DNA of 64,000 nt from Mucilaginibacter inviolabilis (GCF_011089895.1 NZ_JAANAT010000001.1:806001-870000); one strand, 5' to 3'; positions 7,741 through 64,000 are shown, numbered from the stretch's first letter. Translations and numbers: made by a program. The notes: generated from the letters alone by a model not told the origin.

Positions 7741-7779
7741 CAGTTCGAGAATGACACGATGCATTTCTCGACTGTTTTT
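7741..7779 (+). terminator. Orphan terminator-like hairpin
   Basis: CAGTTCGAGAA (7741-7751) pairs with TTCTCGACTG (7765-7774), with one bulged T, around a 13-base loop, and is followed directly by five T (7775-7779). The form is that of an intrinsic terminator on the plus strand, yet no plus-strand gene ends just before it. It could end a small RNA, be the remnant of a lost gene, or attenuate transcription into the synthase genes. Confidence 0.4.
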
Positions 7780-8092: not shown

Positions 8093-8121
8093 TTTGCCTA
8101 CTATTTAAACACATAATATTG
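8093..8121 (+). promoter_or_regulatory. Weak promoter candidate for the polyketide operon
   Basis: TTTG at 8093-8096 and TAATATTG at 8114-8121 (one mismatch to TAnnTTTG) are 17 bases apart, slightly less than the usual 19-21. They lie about 95 bases before the first synthase start codon. Presented only as the best match in the region. Confidence 0.2.
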
Positions 8122-8216
8122 TATAAGAGCTTATTGTAGAAAATAGAATTGGAGTCAATTCTTGTGGGGTATTTACCCTTTTTAATAAGGATATACAGCA
8201 TTAATGAGTGTATTAG

Positions 8217-11200
8217 ATGAAAGAAAAACTGAAAAGCAACTCGAGCGCAAGCGCCAGACCTTATAAAGATGAAATTGCTATAATTGGTATGTCATGCAGA
8301 TTTCCGGGAGCGGAGAATTATCATGACTTCTGGAATAATTTGGTAAACGAAAACTTCAGTGTTACAGAAATTCCCGAAAGTCGCTGGAATTGGAGAGATT
8401 ACTACGGTGATCCTAATCAGGAAAATAACAAAACCAACAGCAAATGGGGGGGATTTATAAATGATATAGACAAGTTTGATCCGCTGTTTTTTAACATCTC
8501 GCCTAAAGAAGCAAAATATATTGACCCTCAGCACCGGATATTTTTAGAAGCAGCTTGGCATGCAGTTGAAGATGCGGGATATAGTATCGGAAGTTTGTCT
8601 GGTAAGAAAATTGGTGTTTATGTTGGGGTTTCTAAAAATGACTACGCAGAAATGTTACAGTCAACTCACCAGGAAATAAGCTCTTTCGTTTCTACAGGTA
8701 CGGTGCATTCTATTTTAGCTAACCGGGTATCCTATCTGTTGGATATTTGTGGTAAAAGCGAAGTAGTTGATACCGCTTGTTCCAGTTCGCTGGTGGCATT
8801 GCACAATGCAATTCGTGATATACGTTTAGGCGGATGTGAAGGGGCTCTGGTGGGTGGAGTGAATGCGCTAATAACACCTACGATGTATCTTTCGCACGGT
8901 AAATCGGGCATGTTATCGTCAGAGGGAAAATGTAAAACATTTGATGAACGTTCCGATGGATATGTGCGTGCTGAAGGTGTAGGATGTGTTTTTATTAAAC
9001 CATTAAGTAAGGCATTAGCCGATAATGACACCATTCTGGGTATTATTAAAGGAACGGCCGTAAATCATAATGGTCGTTCAAATTCTCTTACATCGCCAAG
9101 CGCACGTTCGCAATCAGAAGTTATAGATGCTGCGCTTGAGGATGCCGGATTAGAAGCCGGGCATGTAAGTTATATTGAAGCGCATGGCACCGCTACTCCT
9201 TTAGGTGATCCTATTGAAGTAAGTGCCCTGAAAAAGGTTTTCAGTGGCTATTCAAAAGATGACGACATTCATTGCGGATTAGGCGCTGTAAAAACAAATA
9301 TTGGTCATTTGGAAAGTGCTGCAGGAATGGCTGGTCTTTTCAAGGTGTTGCTTTGTATGCGCCACAAAAAATTACCAGCCCTGTTACATTATCAAAAGCT
9401 CAATCCATATATTGATTTAGCAGGTAGTCCACTCTATGTTAATAATCATTTAACAGATTGGAAGAAATCTGCCAAAGGATTGCAAAATGGACCGCTTACA
9501 GCTGGTATTAGTTCTTTTGGAATGGGTGGCGTAAATGCGCATGTGATATTACAGGCATTTGAAGATAGTCGCCCCCAGCCTTTAATTTCATCTCAATCAT
9601 ATTTTCTAATACCACTATCTGCTAAAACGCTAAAACAGTTAAAAGTATATGCTAATAATATCGCAGTCTTTTTAAAAGGGCCAGGCCAAACACTGCCATT
9701 ACAGGATATTGCCTTTACGATGCAAACCGGCAGAGATGCCATGAATTGCAGAGTTGCATTTAAAGTGTCAACCGTAACTGAATTGATAGATCAACTACAG
9801 GAATATGTGACCAATGATAAACATATTATTACCGAAGACAGGCAAATAGAGCAATGGTTAACAGGCGCTGACATAGATTGGAACGATCCTTCGGTTGGTT
9901 TAACCAGTAAGCGGATAGCCTTACCTGGTTATCCGTTTGAGCGGCGCACATGTTGGATGGATGCACCCGCCGATCAGAAAAATACAGTTGAAACTCCTTT
10001 GCTTGAGTTCAAAAATAACGACCAAAAACGTCAATGGCAATATCAAAGCTTATTACGTAAAACAGATTATTTTGTAAGGGATCATGTAGTACAAGGCGAG
10101 TGCATGTTGCCCGGTGTTGCATATCTGGAAATAGCACGTGCCGTTGCAGAACAAGCTTGCGGCCGCAGTGTAAATGAATTAAATGATATTTGCTGGATCC
10201 ATGCGGTATTGGTAAAGGAAATGAATATGCCTTTACATGTAAACCTGCAACCAGTTGATAAAGGTTTTTCATTTGAAATAACCACTACTGATGGGGTACA
10301 TGCCAATGGAAATATCCAGCTGGAAACTAATAATACTATACCTGCATCTATTGATCTTCGAAAGATCAAAGAACGGTGTAAAGTTCACAAAACCCCGGGT
10401 GAAATATATGCTGCGCTAAGCAAAGAAGGTTTAGGCTATCTGGAAACCTTTAAAACAATAAAAGAAGGTTTTTTTGCAGAAGCAGAGGCATTGTGCTATC
10501 TGGAGCCCACAATAAGGGAGCACAAATTATCTGAAAAAGTATGGGATCCATCCCTGTTGGATGGTGTTTTTCAAGCAGTTGTAGGCTTATGTATATGGGG
10601 AGGTGTGGAGCACAGTCATCAGTTGTTGCCATTTTATTTAAAATCTATCCGTTGTTACGGAAGTCCGGCTATTGCACGTTATGCTTATGTACGGAAATCA
10701 AGCACTTATGCAGATGGCAATCATTATTCATTTGATATGTTTTTATGCGATGAGAATGGCAACGTTATTATTGCATTTGATGAATTTATAAAACGCGCCT
10801 ATAAAACAGCAACTACCAGTATAATAACTGAAACAACGATAACACCGGCCGTTGTTGAAAGTCTGCATTATACCACTGCCTGGTTAGAGCGTCCATTGGG
10901 CATTCTGAATGAACGTCCAAAATCCCTCATTCTATTTGATATAGATGAGCATTTATATGAGGAAGTAAAAAAACAGTATCCTCATACCGTTCCTGTGTTA
11001 TTATTGCCAGGCGATACTTACCAGAAGAAAGATAAAAACACATACTACATTAATCCCGCCGATGCAGCATCTTTCAAGCTCTTGGTCAACGATCTGATAG
11101 AAGATAATATCCAGATTGACAATTGGGTATATAGATGGAGTATGGAGAAGAGCGAAGAAATTACAGAAAATATTCAGGATGTATATGTCTTATTATACCT

Positions 11201-14200
11201 GTCTCAAGCCCTTATCAGTTGCTTTTACAATGGCCGGGTGAGGCTATTGCATTTATATAATTATAAGGATACCTATTCGACTGCGGTACAACAAATGGTA
11301 GGTGGTTTTTCCAGGACTTTGGCTTATGAAAATCCATTGATTTCTATTCAAACGGTTGGAATAACCGAGGATGTTAAATCCAGTTACCAAGAAATCATTC
11401 TCCAGGAAATATCCAGATACTTTATGGCCCCTTTGCGTGAGGTAATTTATCGCCAGGGACGCAGAGAAGAAAGAGTGGTAGTAACCGCTAATGTGCCACC
11501 CGCTTTAACTCAGAATATACTCAAAGAGAATGGCTGCTATCTTATTACAGGGGGTGCCGGTGGATTAGGTATGGTGTTCGCGGCTTACCTGGCAATGGAA
11601 TATAAAGCCAATATTGTGCTAGTAGGGCGAAGTTTAAAAAATACCGCAATTGAGGAGAAACTACAGGATCTGCGTCAGCTTGGAGGAAATGCCGTTTATT
11701 ATTCGGCAGATGTTTCAGATAAGAAAGCTATTATCAAGGTAATAGATAAGGTAAGGAAACAGCATAAAACAATCAATGGTATCATTCATGCCGCTGGGTT
11801 AATTGAAGATGCTTTTATCCTTAATAAACTACCAAGTTCTTTTGAAAGGGTTATCACCCCAAAAGTGTATGGTGCTATTCATTTGGACGAATGCACAAAA
11901 GATGATTCATTGGATTTCTTTATAGTGTTTTCATCCATTGCTTCTTTAATGCCAAACCAGGGCCAGTGTGATTATGCAGCAGCCAATAATTTTCTGGATC
12001 ATTTAATGCAAATCCGCAGAAATAGACAATTAGAAAAAGGTATTCATGATATCAGTCTGGCTATTAACTGGCCGCTTTGGGAAAATGGTGGGATAGATGT
12101 AACTGATGCGGAACGTGAGCACTTATGGGAAGTGTTTGGAATGAAACCTATGAGCCATCAACGGGCATTGGATGGCTTTGTCCAACTGTTAAACGTTTCT
12201 GCTAAAAGTACACCATGCCAGGCCATATTAATCGAAGGTGTTGCACATAAAATAACAGCACACCTTAACGCGGAGCAAATGCCTGTAGTTACTGTGTCGC
12301 ATGAAAAAGCGTCAGCAGGTGGTCTCTTAACCATATTACAGCATGTGGTACGGATCGTTTTACCGGTTTTAACTACCATCAAAAATACCGACAGTTTTAA
12401 TACGCTAGGCTTTGATTCAGTGAGCTTGGTGAAATTGGCTGGTAAAATACAGGAACAACTAGGGATTGCCATTAATCCTATTACGTTAATTGAGCATAAT
12501 ACTATTGCAAGGTTATCAGCTTATCTGGAAAATGAAGTTAGCAGTCCCGCCGCTATTTTGCCAGGACAAATCAGTTGTTTACCTAAAACCTCATTGGTAG
12601 ATGCAGAACGTTCTGATAAGGCACAATTACTGTTCAAAAAACGCTTTAGCAATGAGGAGTTTTTTATGCAGGATCATGTGGTAGAGGGTAAATATAATGT
12701 TCCGGGTGCTTGTTATATTGAAATGGGCAGGCAGTCTGTGACTTTATTAGACAAGAAGGTTTACAGTATGTCTAATAATTATTGGCCCGAGGTTTTGTCT
12801 TCGGCGGGAGCTCCTATTGATGCCCGTATCCAGTTAATAAATAAAGAGAACGGATATGATTACGAGGTTTACAGTTACGATGCCAGTGGAAACAAAACAG
12901 TACATGCATTAGGCGAAGTAAATACTACTACTATACTTAAATCCGGAGACCTAGGTGTATTGGATTTGGAGGCTCTTAAGCAAAAACTAAATACACCCGT
13001 ATCAAGAGAAAATGTTTATGCACAGATCATTGCGGAGGGATTACATGTAGGTCCATCCTTTATGCCGATGGAGGAATTGTGGGTAAGTAAACAGGAGGCA
13101 TTAGGCCACCTAATGTTGCCCACCCACGTAGCAGACACGTTATCTGATTACATACTGCATCCCAGCATGCTGACCGGTGTTTTTCAAACAGCCTTAATTA
13201 ATAATAAACCAAACGGAATAACTACCTCTAAGTACATACCTGTAGCTATTGAAGAAATAGTATTTACAGAACAAATTCCTGCCGAATGTTATGTACATAC
13301 TACGGCGCATGAAGACAATGAACGGATGAGCGGTATTAAAAAATTTGACGCATTGATGGCCGATAAAAACGGATTGGTTGTAGCCCGGTTAAAAGGATTT
13401 GCCATTAAAGAAATAACTAACACTAAAGAGGCAGCAAGTGAAGGATCACCAGCAATAAAGCCTGTTATTACTATCGTTGGCGCAACGGGGCCTTCCATTG
13501 AAAATGTAGAACATTTACTAAAAACGCTATTGCACGAGGGCATAGGTTTAGAGATTAGTGAACTGGATGCCGATTCGTCATTTGATGCCCTGGGGATCAA
13601 CTCCCGAATGATCATTGATCTGAATCGTCTTTTGGCAAAAACATTCGGTAATTTATCCAAAACACTTTTCTTTGAATACCGGAATATTAATGAATTAGCC
13701 GGATATTTCCAGAAAAAACATTCGGCTGTATTACAGGAACTCATAACAGAGGAACAACCTGAAGTATCGATAAAAGAACCAGAACAAGAGCTAATTACCG
13801 TTGCTAACGCAATAGCGGAAACAAAAAAGGAAGCATACACTAAAGACATAGCTATTGTAGGCATAGGGGGCAAATATCCGCAGGCCGATAACCTGTCTGA
13901 GTTTTGGGATGTATTGAAGAATGGAAAGGATTGCATTGTTGAAATTCCTGGAAACAGGTTTGATTACTCCGGTCATTTTGATGAAAATAAAGAAAAAGGC
14001 TTACTTTATTCGCGATGGGGTGGTTTTATTAATAACGTTGATCAATTTGATCCTTTGTTCTTTAATATTTCGCCCAAAGAAGCAGAGGAAATAGATCCAC
14101 AGGAAAGGTTGTTCCTTGAAGTGGTGTGGAATACCCTGGAAGATGCCGGTATTACCCGTGAAAAATTAACCTTACAGTCAAAAAAGGTAGGCGTGTTTGT

Positions 14201-17200
14201 AGGAGCCTTATGGCAGCCTTATGTTAATCTCGGGGTAGAGGAGACAATTAAAGGAAATCCTATTGCTCCAAGTGGATTGTTATATAATATCCCTAACCGG
14301 GTTTCCTATTTCTTTAATTGGACAGGTCCAAGCATAGCTATTGATACCGCTTGTTCGGCTTCGCTAACAGCTTTACATTATGCATGCGAGAGTATCAGGA
14401 GCGGAGAATCAGATAGTTGTATTGCCGGTGGCGTTAATCTTTCATTGTCCCTGAGCAAATATTTATTTTTAAGTCAGCATAATTTTCTTTCAACAGATGG
14501 ACGTTGCCGGAGCTTTGGAATTGGTGACGGTTATGTACCTGGGGAGGGTATAGGCGCGGTATTGCTTAAACCACTGGAACATGCTATCGCTAATGGCGAC
14601 CAGATATATGGTATTATTAAAGGCACAGCTGTTAATCATGGAGGGCGCACAAATGGTTATACCGTACCGAATCCTAATTTACAAGGAGAGCTGATACAAT
14701 CTGCATTAAAAAAAGCACAGATCGATGCGCGTACTATCTCCTATGTGGAAGCGCACGGAACCGGGACATCTTTAGGCGATCCGATAGAAATTACTGGTCT
14801 TTGCAAAGCTTTTGAAGATTATACCGATGATAAACAGTTTTGCGCCATTGGCTCTGTAAAATCAAACATTGGCCATCTGGAGGCTTCTGCGGGTATTGCA
14901 GGATTAACCAAAATATTACTACAATTTAAACACGCTTCCCTTGTTCCGTCAATCCATTCAACAACTATTAATCCCAATATTAGCTTTGAAGAAACTCCTT
15001 TTCATGTTCAGCAAAATCTTGCCGAATGGAAACGGCCTTTGCTCAATATAAACGGACTACAAACGGAAATTCCTTTAAGGGCTATGTTAAGCTCTTTTGG
15101 GGCCGGCGGCAGCAACGCCCATGTCATTGTTGAAGAATTCAGACAGCCGGTAATAAACAAATCGATAAATAGCAGACCCGCCATCATTGTATTATCAGCT
15201 ATTGACCCGGAGCGGCTATATGAACAAGTCCTGAATTTACATGATTTTCTACAAAAGAATACCGGTTTGGCATTACATGATATTGCTTATACCCTGCAAA
15301 TTGGCAGGGAGGCAATGGAAGAACGTTTTGCCGTTGTTGCTAATGATGTTCCATCTTTAATTGATCAGTTAAAACATTATCTAAACGGAACGTCATCTAT
15401 GGCAATTACCAATAATATCAAGCTTAATACGAGGGAGCAACTGTTATTTAATAAAGGGGCTGTCGGGCAAAGGCAAATGCAACAAGCCATACAGGCCGGT
15501 GATTGGGGAACGGCGGCACGCTTATGGGTAAATGCTTTTTCTATTGATTGGGAACTTATATACCCGGGCAATAAACCCAGCAAAATAAGCATGCCTACAT
15601 ACCCCTTTGCAAAAGAGCGGTACTGGCTACCGATGGTTGAGGTAAATACGTCGGCAGGCACCAATGTCTATTTACACCCTCTGCTACATACCAATACTTC
15701 AGATCTGGACGAACAGCAATATACCAGCATCTTTACCGGCCAGGAAATATTCCTAACAGATCATCAGGTTCAAAACAAGAAGATTTTACCGGGAGTTGCT
15801 TACCTGGAATTGGCCAGGATAGCCGGCAAGTTAAGTACGCATCAAAAAGTTACACAACTAAAACAGGTAAGCTGGATAAATCCGATATGGGTAAATGGTG
15901 GTACCAAAACTATTTATACCCACTTATACCGTAAAGGAACACATATAGGTTATGAGATCAATAGTCTGCAACAGGAAGAAGAAATTGTACACAACAGCGG
16001 AACCATTGTTTTAATGGCAATTGAGCCACCTCAGGTTATCAATATTCCTCAGTTAAAAGCTGCGGCTAAGCGCGAATTATCTGGCAAGCAAATATATAAG
16101 GCATTTGATATTGCTGGCTTAAATCTTGGAGATACTTTTCAAGGTGTCGAAAAACTATATCTCGGGGAATTGTATGCGTTGTCAAGAATAAGCCTTTTAA
16201 ATACAGAAGGGTTTGTTTATCCTCCTAATATCCTGGATAGTTTGTTACATGCTGTTTACGGGATAATGGAATCTAACGAGCAGTCATACTCCCTGGTATT
16301 ACCTTATTATGCTGGTGAAATAAATTTCTATAAAGAAATAGAGGGCGCAAAAGAACTATGGGGTTATGCCACACAGAAAGCAAATGGCCATGATCATACT
16401 AATGTTACAGCCGATTTTTATTTGTTGAATGAAAATGGTGATGTTTTAGTGTATTTCAAAGACTTTATTTTCCTTCCGCTAGATGGTGTTTCAAGAAACA
16501 AAACTCAAAAAGAAATAACTGATGCAACCACCCATTTTTTCCGTGAGCAATGGGAGGAAGCAGTACTTTCTCCTGCGGATCAACTAGAGTTAACCCACCA
16601 ACTGATCCTGTTAGCCGGTGGTTCTGTAGGATTATGTGATAAATTACAGGAACAATTAGGGTTGGAAGTATTGCCCATAATGCAGCAACAGCCCGAAGCT
16701 TATTTCAACAGTATATTAAAAGTAATAAAAGAAAAAATAGCGCAAAAGTCATCTGCGCATATTACTGTTGTTTGTCAGCATGCTGATTATCTGGATTACA
16801 GTTTTATATCCGGACTGTTAAAAACCGCGCATTTAGAACACCCGGAAATAACCGGAGGTGTGTTATTAGTTGATAGTTTATCCGTCAAGGATCTGGATGA
16901 ACTTACATCGTTGATTGAGGCTGAACAAAACACCACAGATGCAGAAGTGCGATTTTATAATGGCAGGCGCGAAGTAAAAACATTAATGCCTTTCGTACCA
17001 GAGTTTGATCCCGCTCAAAACATAACTATCCAAGAAGGTGGGGTGTATTTACTAACCGGAGGAGCCGGAGCATTAGGGCGAATGATAGCCTCACATATCT
17101 GCAGAAAAAAGAATATCAAAGTTATTTTAATTGGCAGAAATCCGTTAACTGAAGATATCTCTGCGGCACTTCGTCAAATACAAGGTGTTGTTTATTACCC

Positions 17201-40143: not shown

Positions 40144-40149
40144 GTTATT

Positions 40150-57100: not shown

Positions 57101-60100
57101 TACGGTTGTTTATCAGGACTAAGAAGAGCACGCAGAAAAACTATATTCTATTTGTATTTCACCATATCATATTTGATGGTATGTCAAGCGCTATATTTTT
57201 AGCTTCCTTTTTTGAGAAGTATCAATATCTACTGACTGGTAAAGGGACAATTACAGCTAATGAACCTGATTTTTCATACTTCAGTTTTGCCAAATGGGAA
57301 CAGGAGTTTATCAATAGTAGCAAGGGCGCAAAATGCTTAACCTACTGGCAGCAAAAGCTGTCGGGGGCTTTACCAGTACTGGCATTGCCTTATGACAAAC
57401 CTGTAAAGTTAAACGTAAGTACCACGAGCATAGGTAGTGAAAGTATTCAAATTGACCAACAGGAATTTCAACAGCTAAAAACCTTATGCCGTACACTGGA
57501 TGTGAATATGCCTGTAATGATAGCCGGTATATTTAATATGCTGCTTCATAAGCTCACCGGACAAGAGGATCTTTTAATACTGATGCCTACAGTGGGCAGG
57601 CCTCGTAAGGAATATGAAAAAAGCATTGGTTATTATGTAAATATGATGGTTGTCCGTAATCATGTTTCAGCTGAAATGACATTTAATGAGCTATTACGGT
57701 CAATTAAAAATGAGTTCATCAATGGTATGTCTAATGCGGCTTATCCGTTGCCAAGGCTATTAGCAGATCTGCATATAGAGCGCTCAGGCGGCCGGGAAAC
57801 GCCGCTCAAGGTATCCTTCATTTATCAAAGCATCTTTGATGGAATGTCCTCTGAGGGGGGCATACCCGGAATCGAGATCTATGATGAGGTATATCAGGAA
57901 ACCGCACATATATATTCCCTTGATATACAGGAAATGCATAAAGCATTGATTATCAATTTAAAATATGATGATGATATGTTTTATGCAGCCACAATTCGCC
58001 AGCACCTGGGATATTTCAGCCAAATGCTGAAGGAGGTAATGGAAGATGCCTCTAAACCATTGAAGGCATATGAAATACTGTCGACTGAGGAAATTCGTCA
58101 CCTGTTACTAGAGCGTAATGAATCGGCTGCTGAATACCCAAAGAACAAAACGCTGGCTGATCTTTTTGATGAGCAGGTATTGAAAACGCCTCAGAATTTA
58201 GCAGTGGTGCACGATGGTAAACGAGTCACCTATCAGGAACTAAATGATATGGCAAATCGATTAGCAAATTTTCTAAAAAAATCAGGTGTTCCAAAAAATG
58301 CTCCTATATCCATTGTTTCTCACAAAAGTTTAGAACAAATATGGGGGGTACTCGGCATTGCTAAGGCAGGATGCTATTATATACCAGTAAAAGGTGGGCT
58401 ACCGAAAAACAGGATCAATGAATTGATTGTGCAATCAGAATCAAAGGTTGTGCTTGTACAACGTGATTATCTCGACAAGATTGACCATTCAGAAACCGTA
58501 AATGTGGTTGTTCTGGAAGAAGCATTATTTAGCGATGAAGCGTCAACCCATGAAACTGTAAAAGTGTCTGATACCGAACTGGCCTATATCATATTTACAT
58601 CCGGCTCTACAGGTAAGCCAAAAGGGGTAATGATTGACCACAGGGGCGTTGTGAATACGCTATATGATATGAACGCTCGTTTCAAGATCACGCAAAACGA
58701 TAAGATTTTCGGTATATCTGATTTGAACTTTGATCTGTCGGTTTATGATATCTTCGGCGTACTCGCTTGCGGGGCTGCATTAATATTACCACTTGAAAGT
58801 GAAAGACATCATCCCGATATATGGATGAAGTACGTAAAGGATGAAGGCGTAACCGTTTGGAATTCTGTTCCTCAAATTGTTAACCTGCTTATTGACAGGC
58901 AAGAAGAAACAGATGATAACCTGCTTACAAGCTTGCGCTTATATTTTATGAGCGGAGATTGGATACCCCTGGAGCTTCCGGATAGAATAAAACGGATCAA
59001 TGCACATAGTGAGGTATTTAGTCTTGGCGGTGCTACAGAGGGCTCTATCTGGTCTATTTACTTCCCAATCGGAGAAATTGATCCGTTATGGAAAAGTATC
59101 CCATATGGCTATCCGCTTGGTAATCAGGAAATGTATGTACTGGATGTTAACTTGGCGCCATGCCCGGTTAATGTTCCCGGCGATATTTATATTGGAGGGA
59201 TAGGCGTAGCCAAGGGGTACCATAAAGATCCGGAAAAAACAGCCGCCAGTTTTATTGATCACCCTAAATTGAATAAACGTTTGTATCGTACCGGCGATTT
59301 AGGTTTTCAACATCCAGGTGGATATATGATGTTTCTGGGCCGGCAGGATGGACAGGTAAAGATCAACGGTTTTAGGGTAGAATTAGGTGAAATTGAAACC
59401 ATATTGCAACAATCTGAGTTTGTGAAGCAATGCGTTGTGCTTACTACAGATGATGCTCAACGGAATAAGCTCTTAGTAGCATATGTGGTTGTAAATGATG
59501 AGCTTAATGTCATAACTCTTCAGCAATATCTACGAATCTATCTGCCTGATTATATGGTGCCATCCATTTTTGTAGAGATTGATAAAATACCCTTGTCTTC
59601 AAATGGTAAAGTTGATCGTAATGCCTTACCCTCCGTAGATATGAGTAGTGTAAATACACAACAGTATGAAGCAGCCCGCGATGAGGTAGAACAAGAATTG
59701 GTTGCCATTTGGTCGCAGTTATTAAACGGAGTCCAGGTTGGTATTCATGACGATTTCTTTCAGGTGGGTGGTAATTCCTTAACCATGATACAATTAGTAC
59801 ATAAAATAAACACCAGGTTTAATAAAGACTTACAACTGATTGAAATTATGAAAAATCCAACCATTGCTCAAATGAAAACACTCCTTGATGTTGTGACAAA
59901 AGATCAGGATTCAAACGCTTCCATTTTAACACTAAGAGAAGGCTCTACGCAAGATGCTTCATTTATTATTCCAGGAGCATTAGGATCAACAGATGGTTAT
60001 TATCATCTGGCTACTAACTTGCCGGGCCAGGGGGCTGTATATGGTTTGCAGATGAAGGGACTTAATGGCAAAGAAGAGCCAAATAGCTCCATACAGGAAA

Positions 60101-60732
60101 TGGCTGCCCACAACTTGGCATTGATTAAATCAATTAACCCAATAGGTAAGATCTCGCTGCTGGCACATAGCTATGGAGGTATTGTAATATATGAAATGCT
60201 GAAGCAGGCCGCGTTAATAGCTATTGAAGTTGATGAAGTCATATTACTCGATTGTTTTGTTGATCCTCTTTTATCGTTCCATGCATTGTCGGAGCTTGAT
60301 AAGCTGGGTACCTATTTCAGGGCGCTGCTTAAGTTTAGTCAACCTGAGCTTGATGAGGAAGAAGCTGAATTTATAATTACCTGCATGGGGCAATCAGATG
60401 CAGATAAACGGATGGAGTTTATTTGTGATATCGTAAATACGTTGCCGGCCAACCTGATAATACAAATGTGGAAAGTATTTTATGCTTCAGTATCTGCCAG
60501 TTACAAGATGACTGAAAAGCTTGATTATGCCATCACGTTTGTACAGGCGGATAACTCACAGCTTTCCGGAGAAGATTGGGGAGAAGAAGGTTCTGCAGCC
60601 GGATGGGATCAATACTTCAGCATAATAAAGTTAATGAATACAGAGGCTAACCATTTTACAATTGTAAACGAGCCTCATTGTACCGAGTGGTTAACAAAAA
60701 TCAATAACGAACAAATTTTATCAGCTATATGA
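40150..60732 (+). CDS. Trans-AT PKS-NRPS hybrid, modules 8 (rest) to 12 with thioesterase (6860 aa)
   Basis: Begins inside DH8 at an ATG only six bases after the TAA of the second synthase and in the same frame. Order: DH8-KR8-ACP9, KS9-DH9-KR9-ACP10, KS10-DH10(dead)-KR10-cMT-ACP11, KS11-DH11-KR11-ACP12, C-A-PCP-TE. KS Cys are at residues 1001, 2439 and 4289. The condensation domain has HHIIFDG (His5671-5672). The adenylation domain shows FTSGSTGKPKG (6149-6159) and a cysteine-like specificity code. PCP Ser6543 is in GGNSL. The thioesterase has Ser6674 (AHSYGG), a plausible Asp6701 and His6835. As the last synthase before the trans-acting enzymes, and the only one with a thioesterase, it completes and releases the chain. 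Its stop overlaps the next start by four bases (ATGA), indicating translational coupling. Confidence 0.96.
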   Translation: MSEQRFSSIYTGAEFFLQDHQVLGDQILPGVTYLEMARAAGEYAGGARVTQIRDINWLQPIKVNESAVEVHISLFGTDEAIGYEIYTEAGDRQLHGQGILLSGAQPEPARHDIGALRSSLSHTEQGDSYYEKFRSVGLHYGESFQGIREISYSEESALSRIALPHQAGFVLSPGLLDSALQTCMGISLASGEQQLMLPFSVREVTIYQELPEEVWCYARQDRSGKHSGSYDLELLNASGEVLVQFTELVLLSLENNTEKTSPETTSIGMQLYTSGWQMAKSETTNQTESLPTLVLLAGGPALLADKLQEALACEVKTITASQPETFFIAIQEELQKSWQQKPGMEVQVVCTHADYLDYGFISGLLQTASQENPKIRGKVVVVDSLRMNDVEALTLILSSEQNSKDQEVRYLSGVREVKGIAPLNPIEKPNGLSIKADGVYLITGGNGGLGEHFAQHISKVSGARVVLAGRSELDQSKQALINSQKNTAYCRCDVSKAEEVTSLISTIMERYGRLDGIIHSAGVIRDSYILNKTAKEIQEVFAAKVGGAKNLDNATSSIALDFMVYCSSLAGVFGNAAQADYASANAWLDNYAHYRETERKAGKRHGQTLSINWPLWASGGMQIGAENERYMAYHYGLLPMPTSEGLDAFEKLLNNATVQGIVLYGYHDQLSALTGQASPVTKLATAAPVAVADEVLYAAAVKYLRGLLAAVLGMAEEKLKAKVHFENYGIDSIQITRLTNRLEEVFGRLPRTLFFEYRNLEELCHYFIQDHQASLLILTGLNTSKPVKTNALRIAQENKLSELANKKAVQTKSETLSKAIPNKDIAIIGISGRYPEAKNLKEFWENLKAGKDSITEIPSTRWEMTGFYDEEKGKPGKSYSKWGGFMDDIDKFDPLFFNISPREAALMDPQERLFLQTAWETIEDGGYTRTRLQEIDHDENGLDSQVGVYVGVMYEEYPLFGLEERLKGNFINPGGSPSGIANRVSYFLNLHGPSTAVDTMCSSSLTAIHLACESIQNGSCKLAIAGGVNLSVHPNKYQMLSQGGFASSTGRCESFGEGGDGYVPGEGVGAVLLKPLQQAIADGDRIYGVIKGTAVNHGGKTNGYTVPNPKAQTAVIKAAMKKAGVQAEDISYIEAHGTGTSLGDPIEVAGLSKAFGTTSKQFCSLGSVKSNIGHCESAAGISGLTKVLLQLQHRQLVPSLHSAVLNPNIDFENSPFKVQQELAAWELPNGKARIAGISGFGAGGSNAHVIIEEYTGKPATVYQNTDPVIIVLSARDSTRLQEHVFNLKKHIETYPEINIHEVAYTLQTGREAMEERLAFIAADKEELLQHLSNYLENKIQDLLTGNIRKDAPGFLLEGKAGKAYLESAINEKEGRSLAQLWTKGIHIDWNLLYTDESPSLISLPTYPFARERCWFPQSTAVSLVTASKLHPLLHSNTSNLKEQQFTSTYTGNEPFLTNHQIKGIRTLPGVAYLEIARAAAEIAVQEKITQLKDIVWYSAIQVKDIPQTVYTSLYTVSDNVEYEIYTNNGTEQLHCSGTLVTKTQAIPEKHDLAAIKTGLVHEKEGSACYDLFKAAGLEYGNSFRGIQTLYYNEDVALSKIHLPIEKEYVFTPGILDSALQTCIGIQLAEEKQEILLPFSVSEITNYLPLSEEIWCYVRKNRTSKQISSYDIDLLNTAGEVLIRFTELVLVSPDGFSTGKNDSEKTTAEMHLYTTEWQAKSIQTTDLALNGLSPLIILAGGDAALAGRLQENLASVVKVSNHDAEESFFNDVLLTVKTILPQKRAAQVIVICNNTNYYKYGCITGLLKTITQENSQVSGKLIQVDDVIFQDVEALTLILSSEQNSKDQEVRYLSGVREVKGIAPLNPIEKPNGLSIKADGVYLITGGIGGLGQHFAKHISKVSGARVVLAGRSELDQSKQAWVASQPGTTYYRCDVSKAEEVTALISTIMERYGRLDGIIHSAGVIRDSYILNKTAKEIQEVFAAKVGGAKNLDNATVGIALDFMVYCSSLAGVFGNAAQADYASANAWLDNYAHYRETERKAGKRHGQTLSINWPLWASGGMQIGAENERYMAHHYGLLPMPTSEGLDAFEKLLNNATVQGIVLYGYHDQLSALTGQPTQATRSNTTTPVADEVLYPAAVKYLRGLLATALGMVEEKLEAKVHFENYGIDSIQITRLTNLLEEVFGRLPRTLFFEYRNLEELCHYFIQDHQASLLTLTGLNIMATEQNAIVNTVQPQIQAGKNRRQRFVAIQPVNDNQNNIKDIAIIGISGRYPGANNLNEFWENLKAGKDCITTIPGERWNADEIYSLEKGQPGKSYSKWGGFMDDIDKFDPLFFNISPREAELMDPQERLFLQTVWETIEDAGYTKDNLRSAGSKNGADVKIGVYAGVMYEEYQLFGAEERLKGNFVTPAGIASSIANRVSYFFNFNGPSMAIDTMCSSSLTAIHLACRDMQAGDADIAIAGGVNISVHPNKYLMLSQGRFVSGAGRCESFGEGGDGYVPGEGVGAVLLKPLQQAVADGDRIYGVIKGTAVNHGGKTNGYTVPNPKAQTAVIKAAMKKAGVQAEDISYIEAHGTGTSLGDPIEVAGLSKAFETISKQFCSLGSVKSNIGHCESAAGISGLTKVLLQLQHRQLVPSLHSAVLNPNIDFENSPFKVQQELAAWESPNGKARIAGISGFGAGGSNAHVIIEEYQPAVTKLVEYPLQAIIVLSAKQHNRIKLQVTNLVQFLESHPGSKLHDVAYTLQNGREAMDERLAFVTDSIDHLLSQLKAFLDNKITEPIIGNIRNVQLRELPAYESKEDLQRAILSKNYTELAKLWVRGETIDWTLLYANGKPAKISLPAYPFIKDRYWIPVTEQHVIQQQSDKLHPLLHNNESNLHEQLFTSIYSGKEAFLSASKIPNIKELSASALLELVREAGERSLRAKVTQMREVTWADPIRINGTPAKVNISVFPTGKDIAYSIYTHNKDGEEQVNGQGMLVIQQQPEPESLNIKEILSRQQRTIEKDAFYQLFSKMGIINNSSFMEIEALYYSETEALSKVSLHVVENFVLSPGILDSVVKICMGWLFDTGGRFIYRPAGAAEVTLYNPLSHVAWCHVVRRDRQKANNSTVCYDAELLDDQGNVLLRFKNLILEPENEQIEAAEQENVHFDAPCVYKPVWERVLITPSFSLRKGKHLIVAGNSMPSFAGELQQLLKEKGCEVEIVKNLEIVPLCIVSIYLLQGLFNLSKEVSPKNDYLQKEQAVFNSIQTLLRSPLKEQPLNLMVFTSNTQRVLTTEEVMASGSGIIGLTGTLLKEQPQWTVSRVDLESTDTNKIDWVSALMAGNNKDNDLICLRSGHSYRQRLYQVNLSTNKPSRFRNGGVYVLLGGAGGIGKTTTAYLVKNYNAQVIWLGRRPLDTTIITSQEEIGCLGVKPAYFQCDATSKQEVEQAYEAIKKVYKEVHGLFHSAIVLNDMLLKNMTEDDFKTVFEPKSLASHYLVDAFQSEPLDFICFYSSAQSLLQTPGQGNYAAGCSYKDSYALNLKHKLKAPAYIINWGYWGEVGIVAAPVFRERMELAGVGSITAEEGMRLLETVLSGDQEQVLAIKLNDTVITAIPSIINNVIIEPVYTNSIVRIEVLKIDALTKSDDADKAFLELCSKGILQVLLKMGLESKQQDNQSLHELRKALDISDTYEPLFFVIIKLLKEKHYLEEKGGRLFIKQDIQDFLLQNAVALITAEHKEYLPHGTLLSLCLNAFPEILTGKQQATEVMFPGGSLDYVSGIYQGNRQSDYFNTLLADIIKNSVANGIKQLQPGEKIRILEVGAGTGGTSNIVFKALAPYKDHLEYMYTDLSRSFLLYAEQHFKEIAPYLETGILNIEQPPVEQHMLAGNYDIVIGANVVHATKNMTVTLNNIKYLLKKDGLLLLNEIARTELFTTLTFGLLDGWWLYEDSDIRLSGSPGLSAVNWNTVLSETGYLNTQSLPAISGLSQQIVCAKSDGMIHTVPVKSKQTNMKINIDADKSIRYTEAQDSSWLTDTLINIAANLIKLPPQDFDVHTQFMDYGFDSILGMELIKNINEKLEVSLKPTDLFSYSSITQMTSYLQQTYPDKWRFETVVNTVRVLPITSQVTTPIIPAKKTRFTAETGNTTTSMVVENDIAIIGLSGQFGTAGNMDAFWQVLKEGKSLIGEIPADRWDGEVTSNASKWVGSFLNDIDKFDPMFFKISGSETEMMDPQQRVFLEHCWRAIEDAAINPRTLKGSKCGVYAGVSPSDYNIRESEEASVMWGNSSAILASRISYLLDLKGPAISVDTACSSSLVAMDMGCASLQKGDTDLIIAGGINIMTTSGFYTLASRAGMMSANGKCYTFDKRADGFVPGEGVGVVVLKRLSDAERDGDHIYGVIKASLTNQDGASNGITAPSVLSQQELEKEVYQKFNINPESISYVEAHGTGTSLGDPIELEALTAAFRTYTQKQQYCAIGSAKTNIGHTLEASGMAGVSKILLSLKHKQLPPSLNYEECNPLIDIINSPFKVQRDLGEWKTENNQPRRAAISGFGFSGTNVHMVIEEYIAPQKATQHNSGPAIIVLSAKNAERLKDQVNNLLNFIKSHPDDHLQDMAYTLQVGREAMEERLAIIARDKTELQKLLSEFLAGKNDQLIAGNIKKDKADYLLQGGAAQAYISYALKHQELKSIAALWVKGVDFNWNLLYPFNRPQRISLPTYAFARQRYWVSKQEKQVVQVNSDSLHPLLHSNTSNLKTLQFTSIFTGKESFLEHHKISTEKILPGVAYLEMARIAGCKLTTQQVTRLKNVSWLSPIHVNGKPATVNIRLQGAGDDVKYEIYTSATEDRIHNQGRISIQPAQAPPRLDLEGIKNRFTQSVDREKCYDIFRQIGLNYGSSFQGIERLYYSDNEALSKISLPKEGAFMLSPGLLDSTLQTCMGLSFGRKETSMELPFSVKEVTIYHELPETVWSYVRKSDLNNSDQITNYDVDIVGEQGDILVTFKNFVTLPAPGSVKAIKSDDNEGVLLFTSKWVDQPAVNPLQPEWDTMPMILLAGGSFQLAENLSATLEIEVKIISGETAEEALLNVLTIVKEKMKGKVASHILVLCSNEDYVEYGYISGFLKTAKIENAELSGKVLGVDSLSIKNVTDLTEILLAEQFTTDTEVRYEAGVRKIKQIQEIKVDDCDLVKIKPGGVYLIVGGAGGLGSVFTDYINKVPQTKVILIGRSELSEEKRAALAALSSAEYFKCDVSNKTEVVNLVRLIKEKYQRLDGVIHCAGVLRDGLIINKTADDVRQVLASKVTGIKNIDEATKEEAIDFIVFFSGIAATIGNIGQADYSAANAYMDNYAQYREAERVRGKRKGKTLSINWPFWKDGGMQINTDSITHLENNWGMLPLPSDAGTWAFEKLLGSIYSQGMVVYGHENKIRQKLLSEPVIKEKRIIRKSSEQTDIPGLKEVIAEKILEITAALLRLPVSDIEQDEKLSDYGFDSILLIKYSNEINDFYDIDLTPAIFYNYLTVNDLTQFLLEEYREKLLIRHPIKLDQEEVIAPVTKTQDMLQVIDPEHYPLSEGQKGLWFIQQLEPANINYNVPVSFIIPGNINERLIKESFRLLLEEHPLLRSSFRKDTLTGDVYNQINTVEQSLFFDYAEIDEQQDIKEMCWSLIRRPFNLEHDSPVRLFIRTKKSTQKNYILFVFHHIIFDGMSSAIFLASFFEKYQYLLTGKGTITANEPDFSYFSFAKWEQEFINSSKGAKCLTYWQQKLSGALPVLALPYDKPVKLNVSTTSIGSESIQIDQQEFQQLKTLCRTLDVNMPVMIAGIFNMLLHKLTGQEDLLILMPTVGRPRKEYEKSIGYYVNMMVVRNHVSAEMTFNELLRSIKNEFINGMSNAAYPLPRLLADLHIERSGGRETPLKVSFIYQSIFDGMSSEGGIPGIEIYDEVYQETAHIYSLDIQEMHKALIINLKYDDDMFYAATIRQHLGYFSQMLKEVMEDASKPLKAYEILSTEEIRHLLLERNESAAEYPKNKTLADLFDEQVLKTPQNLAVVHDGKRVTYQELNDMANRLANFLKKSGVPKNAPISIVSHKSLEQIWGVLGIAKAGCYYIPVKGGLPKNRINELIVQSESKVVLVQRDYLDKIDHSETVNVVVLEEALFSDEASTHETVKVSDTELAYIIFTSGSTGKPKGVMIDHRGVVNTLYDMNARFKITQNDKIFGISDLNFDLSVYDIFGVLACGAALILPLESERHHPDIWMKYVKDEGVTVWNSVPQIVNLLIDRQEETDDNLLTSLRLYFMSGDWIPLELPDRIKRINAHSEVFSLGGATEGSIWSIYFPIGEIDPLWKSIPYGYPLGNQEMYVLDVNLAPCPVNVPGDIYIGGIGVAKGYHKDPEKTAASFIDHPKLNKRLYRTGDLGFQHPGGYMMFLGRQDGQVKINGFRVELGEIETILQQSEFVKQCVVLTTDDAQRNKLLVAYVVVNDELNVITLQQYLRIYLPDYMVPSIFVEIDKIPLSSNGKVDRNALPSVDMSSVNTQQYEAARDEVEQELVAIWSQLLNGVQVGIHDDFFQVGGNSLTMIQLVHKINTRFNKDLQLIEIMKNPTIAQMKTLLDVVTKDQDSNASILTLREGSTQDASFIIPGALGSTDGYYHLATNLPGQGAVYGLQMKGLNGKEEPNSSIQEMAAHNLALIKSINPIGKISLLAHSYGGIVIYEMLKQAALIAIEVDEVILLDCFVDPLLSFHALSELDKLGTYFRALLKFSQPELDEEEAEFIITCMGQSDADKRMEFICDIVNTLPANLIIQMWKVFYASVSASYKMTEKLDYAITFVQADNSQLSGEDWGEEGSAAGWDQYFSIIKLMNTEANHFTIVNEPHCTEWLTKINNEQILSAI
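42223..42498 (+). repeat. Direct repeat, ACP copy 1 (ACP9)
   Basis: ACP9 and its downstream linker match ACP10 at 46540-46815 (offset 4317) with few differences. ACP8, by contrast, is clearly different, so this tract was copied separately from the DH-KR tract. Confidence 0.8.
42616..44481 (+). repeat. Direct repeat, KS plus linker copy 2
   Basis: KS9 copy of 38230-40095. The match ends in the DH start motif (SNTSNLKEQ), after which copy 1 runs into the gene 2 stop codon region and copy 2 continues as a normal DH. Confidence 0.85.
45637..46539 (+). repeat. Partial third copy of the DH-KR cassette (KR part)
   Basis: Matches 36925-37827 (offset 8712), including the linker sequence GGTCAACCCACTCAAGC that copy 2 lacks. 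A divergent patch around 45790-45960 interrupts it. The tract therefore looks like a conversion mosaic rather than one clean duplication. Confidence 0.85.
46540..46815 (+). repeat. Direct repeat, ACP copy 2 (ACP10)
   Basis: Match to 42223-42498. The left neighbour resembles copy 1 of the KR tract and this part resembles ACP9, so a switch point lies near 46540. Confidence 0.8.
46933..52380 (+). other. Module 10: KS-dead DH-KR-cMT-ACP
   Basis: KS10 about residues 2262-2692 (Cys2439). DH10 about 2872-3140 is degenerate: the catalytic His position is Ser2897, and the Gly and Pro of HxxxGxxxxP are Asn and Ser. Asp3056 remains, but the Q/H four residues on is Lys. KR10 about 3335-3590 (GGAGGIG from 3366, Tyr3507 in QGNYAAG). 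An intact C-methyltransferase at about 3630-3975 has the SAM motif EVGAGTGGTS from 3799. ACP11 Ser4043 (GFDS). Expected product is alpha-methyl, beta-hydroxy. Confidence 0.88.
47611..48215 (+). repeat. Partial third KS copy (C-terminal half of KS10)
   Basis: Matches 38911-39515 in KS8 (offset 8700) and the same part of KS9 closely. The N-terminal half of KS10 is much more divergent, again a sharp mosaic boundary. Confidence 0.82.
52543..56649 (+). other. Module 11: KS-DH-KR-ACP with altered KR active site
   Basis: KS11 about residues 4132-4545 (Cys4289, SGQFG type like KS7). DH11 about 4725-4990 (His4750, Asp4907; Thr replaces the motif Gly). KR11 about 5145-5400 has an intact GGAGGLG loop from 5175 and Tyr5312, but the catalytic Ser position is Gly5299 (FFSGIAA where other KRs read FSSIAG). 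ACP12 Ser5465 (GFDS). The beta-carbon state is uncertain: keto if the KR is dead, alkene if it works. Confidence 0.85.
56767..60729 (+). other. Module 12: NRPS C-A-PCP with terminal thioesterase, cysteine predicted
   Basis: Condensation domain about residues 5540-5980 (HHIIFDG; not the DxxxxD of heterocyclisation domains). Adenylation domain about 6000-6500: read against GrsA, the pocket residues are Asp6195, Leu6196, Tyr6199, Asn6238, Phe6266, Ser6268, Leu6292, Ile6300, Trp6301 and Lys6487. That gives DLYNFSLIWK, one change from the cysteine code DLYNLSLIWK as I recall it. PCP Ser6543. TE about 6595-6860 (Ser6674, Asp6701, His6835). It adds one amino acid and releases the chain by hydrolysis or cyclisation. 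Confidence 0.88.
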
Positions 60733-62993
60733 AAGTAGTTATGTTTCCCGGACAGGGATCGCAGTATAAAGGGATGGGTAAGGAGTTATTTAACTCTTTC
60801 AAACAGGAAACCCTTATGGCATCAGACATATTAGGATATGATCTGGAAGAGTTATGTATAAAAGACCCAAACAAGCAGTTAAACAGAACTGATTTTACGC
60901 AACCAGCTCTATACGTAGTTAATGCATTTGCCTATTATGCCAATCAACCACACAGTCGGCCCAGTTATTTAATAGGTCATAGCCTGGGAGAATACAATGC
61001 ACTGCTTGCCGCAGAAGCTTTTGATTTTAAAACCGGGTTAAAGCTGGTGAAAAGAAGAGGGGAACTGATGGCTGCGGCATCTGGCGGCGGTATGGCGGCA
61101 GTATTGGGCCATAAAGCCGAAGTTGTGCAGCAAATGCTTTTAGATGGAGGATATACCGATATTGATATCGCCAATTTTAATACTTCCACACAAATTGTGA
61201 TTGCAGGGCCCCAGCATACTATTGACCGGGTTGTAGAGGATTTTGAAGCTCAAAGTATTAAAATAATTCCATTAGTTGTTAGTGCTCCGTTTCATTCTCG
61301 CTATATGCAGCCTGCAGCAGTAGAGTTTAATAATTTTCTGCAAAACTTTCAGTTTTTGCCCTTGCAAATACCCGTAATATCTAACGTAACGGCAAATCCA
61401 TACACAAATGAAGAAGTGAGTACTTTGCTGGCCAGGCAGATTGTAAGTTCTGTGCGATGGACCGATACCATACGCACCCTGATGGGCATCGGAATTACCG
61501 CTTATGAAGAAATTGGGAGTTCTATTTTAACCAAAATGGTTAACGACATTAAAGAGAACTGTACGCCACTTACAAGAATCGAAGATAGGGCCAAAAGTAT
61601 TTCTGATGTACCGGCAACTGCTGCGACAAATGAAAAAACATGTTTATCTACGCGTTTAGGCAGTTTGGCATTTCGCGAAAACTACGGTATAAAGTATGCT
61701 TATGTTGCAGGCGCTATGTATAGAGGAATAGCATCGCCCCAATTAGTAGTACGTTTAGGGAAGGCAAATATGCTGGGATTTTTAGGTACAGGCGGAATGT
61801 CATTGGAACAAATGGAAAAAGGCATTCAGCAAATTCAACAACAGCTTACTAAGAATGAGGCATATGGGGTGAATCTTCTTCACAATCTGAATGATCCGGA
61901 GTTTGAAATGAAGGCAGCCGAACTTTTCCTGCGTTATGGAGTTAGCAATATCGAGGCTTCTGCTTATATGCAGATTACTCCGGCCCTTGTATATTATCGT
62001 CTAAACGGTTTGTACAAGAATCAGGATGGTCAGCCTGTTTGTAAACATAATATACTTGCAAAAGTGTCAAGACCAGAGGTTGCCGAAATATTTATGAGGC
62101 CGGCTCCTGAAAAAATGGTTAGACACCTCCTGGAAGACGGACTAATCACATCTGAACAGGCTGAACTCTCCAGATTAATACCTATGAGTCATGATATATG
62201 TGTAGAAGCTGATTCAGGCGGACACACAGACAGGGGAGTAGCCATGGTTTTATTGCCTTCTATTCAACGTTTAAAAAAAGATATAACAGAAGAATACGCC
62301 TATGGTAGCCTGATCAGAGTAGGTCTTGCAGGTGGAATAGGCACACCCCAAGCGGCAACCTGTGCTTATATGATGGGAGCAGATTTTATTTTGACCGGAT
62401 CCATTAACCAATGCACAGTGGAGGCAGGCACAAGTGATGCCGTAAAAGATCTTTTACAAGATATCAATGTACAGGACACTGATTACGCACCAGCTGGTGA
62501 TATGTTTGAAATTGGGGCTAAAGTGCAGGTATTAAAAAAAGGGGTGTTGTTTGCAGCAAGAGCTAATAAACTTTATGTATTGTATAATCAACACGCAGGA
62601 CTGGAAGAGATACCAGAAAAAACATTAACGCAATTGGAGAAAACCTATTTCAATAAGCCTATTACAGATATATGGGAAGAAGTGAAGGTTTATTTTAACC
62701 GTATAGGGCAACCTGCAGAAATCAGTAGAGCAGAACAGAATCCAAAAAATAAAATGGCACTCATATTTCGCTGGTATTTTGGATATACTAATAACCTGGC
62801 ATTTGAAGGTAATATAGAAAATAAAGTAAACTTTCAGATACATACAGGGTCTGCGTTGGGGGCCTTTAACCAATGGGTAAAAGGTACTCCATTGGAAAGC
62901 TGGAAAAAAAGGCATGTGGATGAAATAGGAGTGAGCATTATGGAAGGCGCAGCAAAAATGTTAGAAGAAGCATCATTAATGATCAATAATTAA
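60729..62993 (+). CDS. Trans-acting acyltransferase / FMN enoylreductase fusion (AT-ER)
   Basis: A 754-residue two-domain protein typical of trans-AT clusters (PksE-like in layout). The N-terminal acyltransferase (about 1-285) has GQGSQYKGMG near residue 8, Ser85 in GHSLGEY and His189 in SAPFHS, a pattern normal for malonyl-CoA-specific enzymes. It would load the AT-less modules. The C-terminal part (about 305-754) is a PfaD-type flavin-dependent enoylreductase of the nitronate-monooxygenase fold (GSLAFRENYGIKYAYVAGAM, GFLGTGGMSLEQ, VEADSGGHTD, GLAGGIGTPQAA). It may reduce selected alkenes in trans, since no in-line ER exists in the synthases. Its start overlaps the third synthase stop (ATGA). 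Which module the ER serves cannot be told from sequence. Confidence 0.95.
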   Translation: MKVVMFPGQGSQYKGMGKELFNSFKQETLMASDILGYDLEELCIKDPNKQLNRTDFTQPALYVVNAFAYYANQPHSRPSYLIGHSLGEYNALLAAEAFDFKTGLKLVKRRGELMAAASGGGMAAVLGHKAEVVQQMLLDGGYTDIDIANFNTSTQIVIAGPQHTIDRVVEDFEAQSIKIIPLVVSAPFHSRYMQPAAVEFNNFLQNFQFLPLQIPVISNVTANPYTNEEVSTLLARQIVSSVRWTDTIRTLMGIGITAYEEIGSSILTKMVNDIKENCTPLTRIEDRAKSISDVPATAATNEKTCLSTRLGSLAFRENYGIKYAYVAGAMYRGIASPQLVVRLGKANMLGFLGTGGMSLEQMEKGIQQIQQQLTKNEAYGVNLLHNLNDPEFEMKAAELFLRYGVSNIEASAYMQITPALVYYRLNGLYKNQDGQPVCKHNILAKVSRPEVAEIFMRPAPEKMVRHLLEDGLITSEQAELSRLIPMSHDICVEADSGGHTDRGVAMVLLPSIQRLKKDITEEYAYGSLIRVGLAGGIGTPQAATCAYMMGADFILTGSINQCTVEAGTSDAVKDLLQDINVQDTDYAPAGDMFEIGAKVQVLKKGVLFAARANKLYVLYNQHAGLEEIPEKTLTQLEKTYFNKPITDIWEEVKVYFNRIGQPAEISRAEQNPKNKMALIFRWYFGYTNNLAFEGNIENKVNFQIHTGSALGAFNQWVKGTPLESWKKRHVDEIGVSIMEGAAKMLEEASLMINN

Positions 62994-63003
62994 TAGAAAA
63001 TTC

Positions 63004-64000
63004 ATGCAAAACACGAAAATCATTGATCGTCATGTCGTGTTGTTATTCTCTGGGCAGGGTAGCCACTACCGGGGAATGGGACAGCAACTATATGAGCAAA
63101 ACGAGGTATTCAAAAATAGCATCGAAAAGATGGACCTGGTTGTACGGCAACAATTGAGGCGGTCACTGATAGATGAATTATATATTAAGACCGACGAACC
63201 TTTTGATGATCTGCTCATAACTCATCCGGCAATAGTTGCAGTTGAAATTGCATTATTTCATGTGATTCAGGAACTGGGAATTAAACCAGCGTATGTGTCT
63301 GGTAATAGTTTAGGCGAATTTGCTGCAGGAGTAGCAAAAGGCATATGGAGCGCGGAGACTGCTGTAATAGCAGCAATAGAACAGGCTAAATCAATCCAGC
63401 GATGCCATATAGAAGGTGGATTGCTTGCTGTTTTAGCTGAAGAAGAAAAAATGCGCAGCCTTTACAAACAACATCAGCTTTTTTTGGCTGCCGATAACTT
63501 TCCGGGACATTTTACATTGGCAGGTAGCCTGTCGCAGCTTGATCAGTTTGAGATGATTCTGACAAAGCAAAATATCACTTTTTTAAGATTACCTGTAGCG
63601 AGTCCGTTTCATTCGCCATTAATGAGGGATGCCGAGCGCAGTTTTAGGTATCATACAGGCTGTAGCCCTCAATTGCGTCAGGCAGAACATGGGTTCGTTT
63701 CAGGTTTCTCCGGTCAGGAATTGTCTGTATTGCCAGAAAATTACTTTTGGGAAGCTATATTTCAGTATACCAATTTCCCGGCAGTTATAGATTTCTTTAT
63801 TAAAAAAGGCCCCTGCTTATTTCTTGATATGGGGCCATCAGGTACAATTGCTACGTTTAGTAAATATAATTTACGGCCCTCTGCCAATTCTGTAGTTTTT
63901 CACATTATGAATCCCTTTAAAAAAGAAATGGAACAATTAGAAAAATTGAAGGAAATGATAATGGCAGACCAGAAAGCAAAAGTGGAAAAATTCCATGTCT
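63004..64000 (+). CDS. AT-like protein, acyl hydrolase or second trans-AT (3' end outside window)
   Basis: ATG 63004 lies 10 bases after the AT-ER stop and the frame stays open for 332 codons to the window edge. It is an acyltransferase-fold protein: FSGQGSHYRGMG near residue 16, nucleophile Ser102 in GNSLGEF and His203 in SPFHSPLM. Asn replaces the usual His of GHSxG. A stand-alone protein of this size next to an AT-ER matches the PedC-type acyl hydrolases that remove stalled acyl groups from carrier proteins in trans-AT systems. A second transferase delivering another unit is the alternative. It already exceeds a normal AT (about 280-300 residues), and the last 30 residues are Lys/Glu-rich, so a C-terminal extension or fusion may follow beyond the window. 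Confidence 0.88.
   Translation, partial: MQNTKIIDRHVVLLFSGQGSHYRGMGQQLYEQNEVFKNSIEKMDLVVRQQLRRSLIDELYIKTDEPFDDLLITHPAIVAVEIALFHVIQELGIKPAYVSGNSLGEFAAGVAKGIWSAETAVIAAIEQAKSIQRCHIEGGLLAVLAEEEKMRSLYKQHQLFLAADNFPGHFTLAGSLSQLDQFEMILTKQNITFLRLPVASPFHSPLMRDAERSFRYHTGCSPQLRQAEHGFVSGFSGQELSVLPENYFWEAIFQYTNFPAVIDFFIKKGPCLFLDMGPSGTIATFSKYNLRPSANSVVFHIMNPFKKEMEQLEKLKEMIMADQKAKVEKFHV

Follow-up and report, generated by a model that had tools for sequence, protein, structure and literature searches.

A trans-AT PKS-NRPS locus from Bacteroidota with a terminal cysteine-type module, and a sister line lacking one module

Gene and domain organisation

The window analysed here is the whole stretch of 64,000 nt (C1:806001-870000) from a 7.15 Mb genome, and positions are counted from its first letter. 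ORF reading identified three adjacent open reading frames on the + strand (8217-60732), genes A, B and C, which together encode 17,500 residues of a modular trans-AT PKS-NRPS (Table 1). We cut the three proteins at their KS domains, scanned the segments with Pfam, and rechecked the module order with our own HMMs. Eleven ketoacyl-synthase domains were found (E 1e-75 to 1e-96), every one of them followed by RhiE-like_linker PF22336, a trans-AT-type post-KS subdomain, and Acyl_transf_1 was absent from all 13 segments covering the PKS proteins. Genes for trans-acting ATs follow, and the first-pass annotation of a trans-AT PKS-NRPS with 11 KSs was thus borne out. After the last ACP, the assembly line ends in Condensation, AMP-binding, PP-binding, and Thioesterase domains. 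A hidden loading module upstream of KS1 was rejected because 7146-8216 contains no + strand ORF of at least 80 aa and KS1 is also N-terminal in a homologous line, found in genome G827 and described below. The locus is an intact and apparently uncharacterised trans-AT PKS-NRPS of a known type of system; the functional cluster reaches beyond the window, to about 66175.

Table 1. Genes, modules and domains of the locus, in window positions
Feature	Position	Strand	Basis
PKS gene A, 8289 aa: M1-M5 and KS6-KR6 of M6; no loading domain ahead of KS1	8217-33086	+	ORF, Pfam
M1: KS1-DH-KR-ACP-DH*-ACP	8217-13781	+	Pfam, motifs; identical order in G827
M1 second dehydratase-like domain DH*, His present, catalytic Asp to Thr	12573-13439	+	motifs; lowest dN among DH pairs
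M1 second carrier domain ACP1b	13509-13715	+	83% identity to G827; best-conserved ACP
M2: KS-DH-KR-ACP	13782-18131	+	Pfam, motifs
M3: KS-DH-ACP, KR absent	18132-21242	+	Pfam; no KR in G827 either
M4: KS-DH-KR-ACP	21243-25562	+	Pfam, motifs
M5: KS-DH-KR-ACP; no counterpart in G827	25563-29894	+	Pfam, G827 comparison, trees
M6: KS-KR (gene A) / degenerate MT-ACP (gene B), DH absent	29895-33906	+	Pfam, motifs, alignments
PKS gene B, 2351 aa: remainder of M6, M7, KS8	33088-40143	+	ORF, Pfam
Degenerate methyltransferase remnant, gene B N-terminus, no SAM-binding motif	33088-33657	+	blastp to M10 MT-ACP, alignment with G827
M7: KS-DH-KR-ACP	33907-38172	+	Pfam
M8: KS (gene B) / DH-KR-ACP (gene C)	38173-42555	+	Pfam
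PKS-NRPS gene C, 6860 aa: remainder of M8, M9, M10, M11, NRPS module, TE	40150-60732	+	ORF, Pfam
M9: KS-DH-KR-ACP	42556-46872	+	Pfam
M10: KS-DH(inactive)-KR-MT-ACP	46873-52482	+	Pfam, motifs
M10 C-methyltransferase, EVGAGTGG motif	50920-52092	+	Pfam, motif
M11: KS-DH-KR-ACP	52483-56652	+	Pfam
Condensation domain, HHIIFDG, not heterocyclisation type	56755-58107	+	Pfam, motif
Adenylation domain, cysteine-like pocket	58150-59622	+	alignment
Peptidyl carrier domain	59665-59892	+	Pfam, motif
Type I thioesterase, AHSYGG	59920-60729	+	Pfam, motif
Fusion of a trans-acting malonyl AT with a PfaD-type enoyl reductase	60729-62993	+	profile matches
Second AT-like domain (GNSLG) fused to SolJ-like metallo-beta-lactamase-fold (MBL) hydrolase	63004-64000, gene to 64629 outside window	+	profile matches

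We then assessed the catalytic motifs. All 11 KSs carry the Cys-His-His site (DT(A/M)CS, EAHGT, and NIGH motifs), and therefore none resembles a non-elongating KS0. DH and KR occur together in nine modules (M1, M2, M4, M5, M7, M8, M9, M10, and M11), in keeping with the eight or nine sets counted earlier. His and Asp are both retained in DH1, 2, 3, 4, 5, 7, 8, 9, and 11, that is, in eight of the nine DH-KR modules, the exception being M10, where DH10 has lost its His. The KRs of M1, M2, M4, M5, M7, M8, M9, and M11 contain the catalytic Lys, Ser, Tyr, and Asn as well as the LxD aspartate. KR6 and KR10 read YAAGC, and since Cys occupies the position of the catalytic Asn, these two domains could be inactive and yield ketones. 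The only complete C-methyltransferase is that of M10, in agreement with the single C-methylation already proposed. The first 190 residues of gene B form a truncated methyltransferase; blastp matched its flanks and ACP to the M10 MT-ACP (40% over 146 residues, plus a short LQPGEK match), and beyond its KS, M6 shares 47% identity with M10. In the second dehydratase-like domain of M1, DH*, the His is retained and Thr replaces Asp (HPSMLTGVFQ). This DH*-ACP tail, the KR-less M3, the DH-less split M6 with its degenerate MT, and the dead DH10 were absent from the first-pass annotation.

The terminal module was found to be C-A-PCP-TE, as had been expected of a cysteine-type module with TE. Its adenylation specificity stretch aligns with the bacillamide synthetase BmdB (165 bits) and shares the pocket motifs FDLSVYD, WN-VP, SGDWIPL, and SLGGATE-SIWSIY; all pocket positions visible in the alignment match but one, which is Phe here, Trp in G827, and Leu in BmdB. 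The BmdB A domain activates cysteine, and the terminal A domain is likely to select cysteine as well. It is unlikely that an intact line ends instead in serine, alpha-methylserine, or another small residue and makes a sulfur-free product: the specificity stretch does match BmdB and the NRPS structure 6LTA at similar scores, and the Phe/Trp position departs from BmdB, but the other visible pocket motifs all agree with BmdB, and G827 has an A domain 76% identical to this one.

Cyclised cysteine had been considered as one form of the product. The DxxxxDxxS motif of Cy domains is absent, and the canonical HHxxxDG is present as HHIIFDG both here and in G827; therefore, a thiazoline is not expected. 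A thiolactone on cysteine, also proposed, is unlikely on chemical grounds, because joining the carboxyl to its own thiol would require a four-membered ring, which nothing at the locus encodes. The TE serine sits in AHSYGG, and release by hydrolysis or by macrolactonisation onto the M6/M10 hydroxyl is chemically more likely. Tetramate formation via the TE was rejected because the DH and KR of M11 are expected to leave no beta-keto amide.

The AT-ER protein scored 306 bits over the cut-off for fabD and 668 bits over the cut-off for pfaD_fam. Its AT carries GHSLG, and the second AT-like domain has GNSLG in its place and may be a proofreading acyl hydrolase instead of a second malonyl-AT. The MBL half fused to this domain matches SolJ with a score below the cut-off. 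Beyond the window, the AT-MBL gene is followed by a TetR regulator and then a phosphopantetheinyl transferase.

Flanking genes were also considered. Two sets of neighbours were rejected as cluster members because neither adjoins the G827 cluster: the ECF sigma/FecR/TonB/DUF4249 and fasciclin genes at 969-7145, and the lantibiotic dehydratase gene on the downstream side. The cassette at 969-6002 (ECF sigma factor, FecR, carboxypeptidase-regulatory/TonB plug protein, and DUF4249) is A+T-rich, with a G+C of 0.34. The lantibiotic/thiopeptide-type dehydratase gene adjoins the cluster at 66434-69343 on the window scale and is not conserved at G827; by eye, sensor kinase-like and response regulator-like genes come after it, and an NRPS condensation-like fragment at 72075-72545 is followed by frame-broken remnants, possibly of a decayed NRPS gene. 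The G+C of the PKS is 0.413; the 20 kb preceding the window have 0.411, and the downstream sequence has 0.389. Composition thus gave no signal of horizontal transfer.

A sister line in another genus

The AT-MBL protein was used to search for related lines. Among 400 genomes of the order, one full-length relative was found (61% over 533 residues), in G827, which belongs to another genus of the same family. None of the other 148 genomes in the window's genus has the fused protein, and a family sample of 399 genomes yielded matches to halves of it only. A wider genome-collection scan, which needs exact short peptide words and is unreliable for 61% relatives, returned two distant partial matches only. 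L029 and L030, relatives from that collection, were dismissed, as their similarity is confined to the MBL half and the sizes of their ORFs show no sign of a large PKS. Gene content and the phyla of the partial matches point to Bacteroidota as the phylum of the source organism.

We read the G827 line from 100 kb around the match. It lies at C1 about 2758900-2811400 (2.759-2.811 Mb), and its order, with bars at gene ends, is KS-DH-KR-ACP-DH-ACP-KS-DH-KR-ACP-KS-DH-ACP-KS-DH-KR-ACP-KS-KR / ACP-KS-DH-KR-ACP-KS / DH-KR-ACP-KS-DH-KR-ACP-KS-DH-KR-MT-ACP-KS-DH-KR-ACP-C-A-ACP-TE / AT-ER / AT / MBL. It contains 10 KSs and otherwise has the same gene and module order as the 11-KS line, including the terminal C-A-PCP-TE, AT-ER, AT, MBL, and PPTase. 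Orthologous domains pair in order, with identities of 77-84% for KS, 50-67% for DH, 60-73% for KR, 61% for C, 76% for A, and 61% for TE. By contrast, G827 lacks KS5-DH5-KR5-ACP5, has no TetR gene, and carries AT and MBL as separate genes; the protein that is a single fusion here is encoded there by two same-frame genes parted by a stop.

No further copy of the assembly line was found in either genus (148 other genomes and 145 genomes searched), and among the 145 genomes of G827's genus the M1 tail was present in G827 only. Two members of that genus, G296 and G384, have different, very large trans-AT PKS-NRPSs (the first protein in G296 has 14,010 residues), which were rejected as homologues since their architecture differs.

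At the point of difference, the G827 KR4-ACP4 pairs with our M4 and the following KS with our KS6, placing the switch in the ACP-KS linker or early in the KS. M5 branches ahead of the pair formed by our KS6 and G827 KS5 in the KS tree, and it falls outside every orthologue pair in the trees of DH and KR. Because the trees place M5 before the split, they favour loss of M5 in G827 over a recent gain here, the alternative being import of M5 from an unsampled donor. The two lines agree domain for domain except for one missing module and thus represent a natural experiment in module loss. Trans-AT lines evolve via module exchange, and this pair offers a clean natural template for PKS engineering, with the G827 ACP4/KS junction marking a point of module removal at which the downstream domains are still under purifying selection.

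Both lines also share their oddities, namely the M1 DH*-ACP with Asp-to-Thr, the KR-less M3, the split M6 with a broken MT, the split M8, and the dead DH in the MT module. In comparisons of the orthologous pairs, dS was mostly at saturation (undefined or >1), and dN was far lower. DH10 without His, MT6 without a SAM motif, M3 without KR, and the extra DH*-ACP might be taken as signs that the cluster is decaying and the line non-functional. This is very improbable, as the three ORFs are open across about 17,500 codons, the KS triads are intact throughout, and the same degenerate domains recur in G827 while the remaining line is under strong purifying selection.

Among the DH pairs, dN was lowest for M1 DH* (0.22) and highest for the dead DH10 (0.41). 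Among the ACP pairs, it was lowest for the ACP after DH* (0.10; 83% identity) and highest for the ACP before DH* (0.45). The M1 DH*-ACP tail is probably a functional part under constraint and no relic, because its protein divergence is the lowest of all DH and ACP domains compared. A retained His without the Asp is a signature associated with double-bond-shift domains. In both clusters, M1 DH* has the sequence features of an enoyl-isomerase, being a double-hotdog DH relative with the catalytic His and without the catalytic Asp. The tail would most likely alter the first double bond, e.g. by shifting it from the alpha,beta to the beta,gamma position.

KS clades, internal repeats and known systems

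A KS tree was built from our KSs, those of bacillaene, macrolactin, and thiomarinol, and seven orphan plasmid loci. Our KSs did not form a group of their own but were spread over several clades together with KSs of bae, mln, and tml, in line with the grouping by substrate across pathways that marks trans-AT systems. KS3-6 are placed with bacillaene KS7/8 and with further KSs, most of which stand behind DH-KR modules, and KS2 and KS8-10 belong to another large clade. KS7 and KS11, whose preceding modules M6 and M10 are of KR-MT type, share a weak node (90/56) with thiomarinol KS8 and KS10 and with Agrobacterium/Rhizobium KSs; both thiomarinol KSs and the Agrobacterium KS in that group follow MT modules. 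In plain BLAST, the best matches of KS7 and KS11 were Eleftheria KSs with no MT detected upstream, so the clade gives only a moderate indication of alpha-methyl substrates. As the MT of the preceding module is broken, the KS7 clade may record an ancestral methylated substrate. KS4, behind the KR-less M3, lies nearest to KS3; this is a weak argument for an ene at the M3 position.

M7 and M8 share 91-93% DNA identity along about 4.2 kb, including exact tracts of up to 393 bp, and KR7-9 cluster together in the KR tree. Such near-identical blocks could reflect misassembly, with a real module number other than 11; we regard this as highly improbable, because the M7-M9 repeats differ at many sites and the corresponding stretch of G827 (there M6-M8) independently supports the count. 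G827 keeps the same module number with more diverged copies, indicating that the near-identity of M7-M9 is probably due to recent gene conversion and is not a count made by assembly. The near-identical tracts extend over 35762-48224, where G+C is locally 0.455 versus 0.40.

This pathway was not found in literature searches, and no characterised cluster with this module order was present in the papers or genomes searched; among the genomes, G827 alone repeats the order, with one module fewer. Bacillaene is similar in its trans-AT KS-DH-KR runs, MBL-fold hydrolase, several ATs, and terminal TE, and our KS3-6 lie near its KS7/8, but it has mid-chain NRPS modules and a beta-branching cassette and no terminal cysteine module. 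Macrolactin is likewise DH/KR-rich, 11 KSs were found in mln, and our KS2 and KS10 are close to mln KS4; its line has no NRPS module and another module order, and its product is a macrolactone. Thiomarinol (tml, pTML1) has KS8 and KS10 behind KR-MT modules, near our KS7 and KS11, but differs in module order, and a separate NRPS system supplies its sulfur heterocycle. Neither the elansolid nor the cuniculene cluster is known to end in a cysteine module. Elansolid (Chitinophaga) and cuniculene (Aquimarina) are Bacteroidota trans-AT PKS systems (PMC9248904, PMC9323603). Solanimycin, whose SolJ is matched below cut-off by our MBL, also joins a trans-AT polyene acyl chain to an NRPS, but sol is a three-module, proposed iterative PKS with a dehydroalanine/glycine peptide and no terminal cysteine module described (PMC10204066). 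The pDMB05-1 record of Bacillus velezensis carries no annotation for the early bacillaene PKS genes, which show up there as broken reading frames.

Proposed biosynthesis and product

The domain order, catalytic motifs, and orthology with G827 are best explained by a functional trans-AT PKS-NRPS that builds a long, multiply unsaturated chain capped with cysteine, a reading to which we give a probability of roughly 75%; its chemical steps and product are predicted from these features. KS1 would be primed without a dedicated loading module, probably with a small acyl unit such as acetyl, and eleven rounds of malonyl extension would follow, with malonyl delivered in trans by the AT-ER protein. M1, M2, M4, M5, M7, M8, M9, and M11 are predicted to perform reduction and dehydration and thereby install double bonds, and the LxD aspartate of a KR usually predicts E olefins. 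M3, with DH and no KR, would leave a ketone or borrow a neighbouring KR. M6 would give a hydroxyl and M10 an alpha-methyl-beta-hydroxyl unit, and the trans ER may saturate some positions. The final module would join cysteine in amide linkage to an alpha,beta-unsaturated acyl chain, and the TE would free an acyl-cysteine acid or a macrolactone on the M6/M10 hydroxyl. Removal of stalled chains is the probable role of the second AT-like domain and the MBL hydrolase.

With an acetyl starter, the chain would have 24 carbons plus one methyl, in the order ene units M1, M2, M4, and M5, hydroxyl M6, triene M7-M9, hydroxyl/methyl M10, and ene M11; the G827 congener should be two carbons shorter. The first-pass annotation suggested a polyene-type product. 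A continuous polyene is weakened, since hydroxyls are the most likely outcome at M6 and M10 and M3 lacks a KR, and the predicted product is better described as ene blocks parted by hydroxyls than as one polyene. Bacteroidota hybrid clusters are mostly without linked products (PMC9248904), and a cysteine-terminated polyunsaturated polyketide, if made, would add a thiol-bearing scaffold from this phylum.

A joint reading of the M1 tail and the line pair is more tentative, and we consider it rather less probable than its negation. It holds that DH*(Asp to Thr)-ACP acts as a KS-free in-module isomerase, or another starter-tailoring station, on the first double bond, as a truncated shift bimodule, and that the two lines are a working one-module deletion making cysteine-capped polyenes one two-carbon unit apart.
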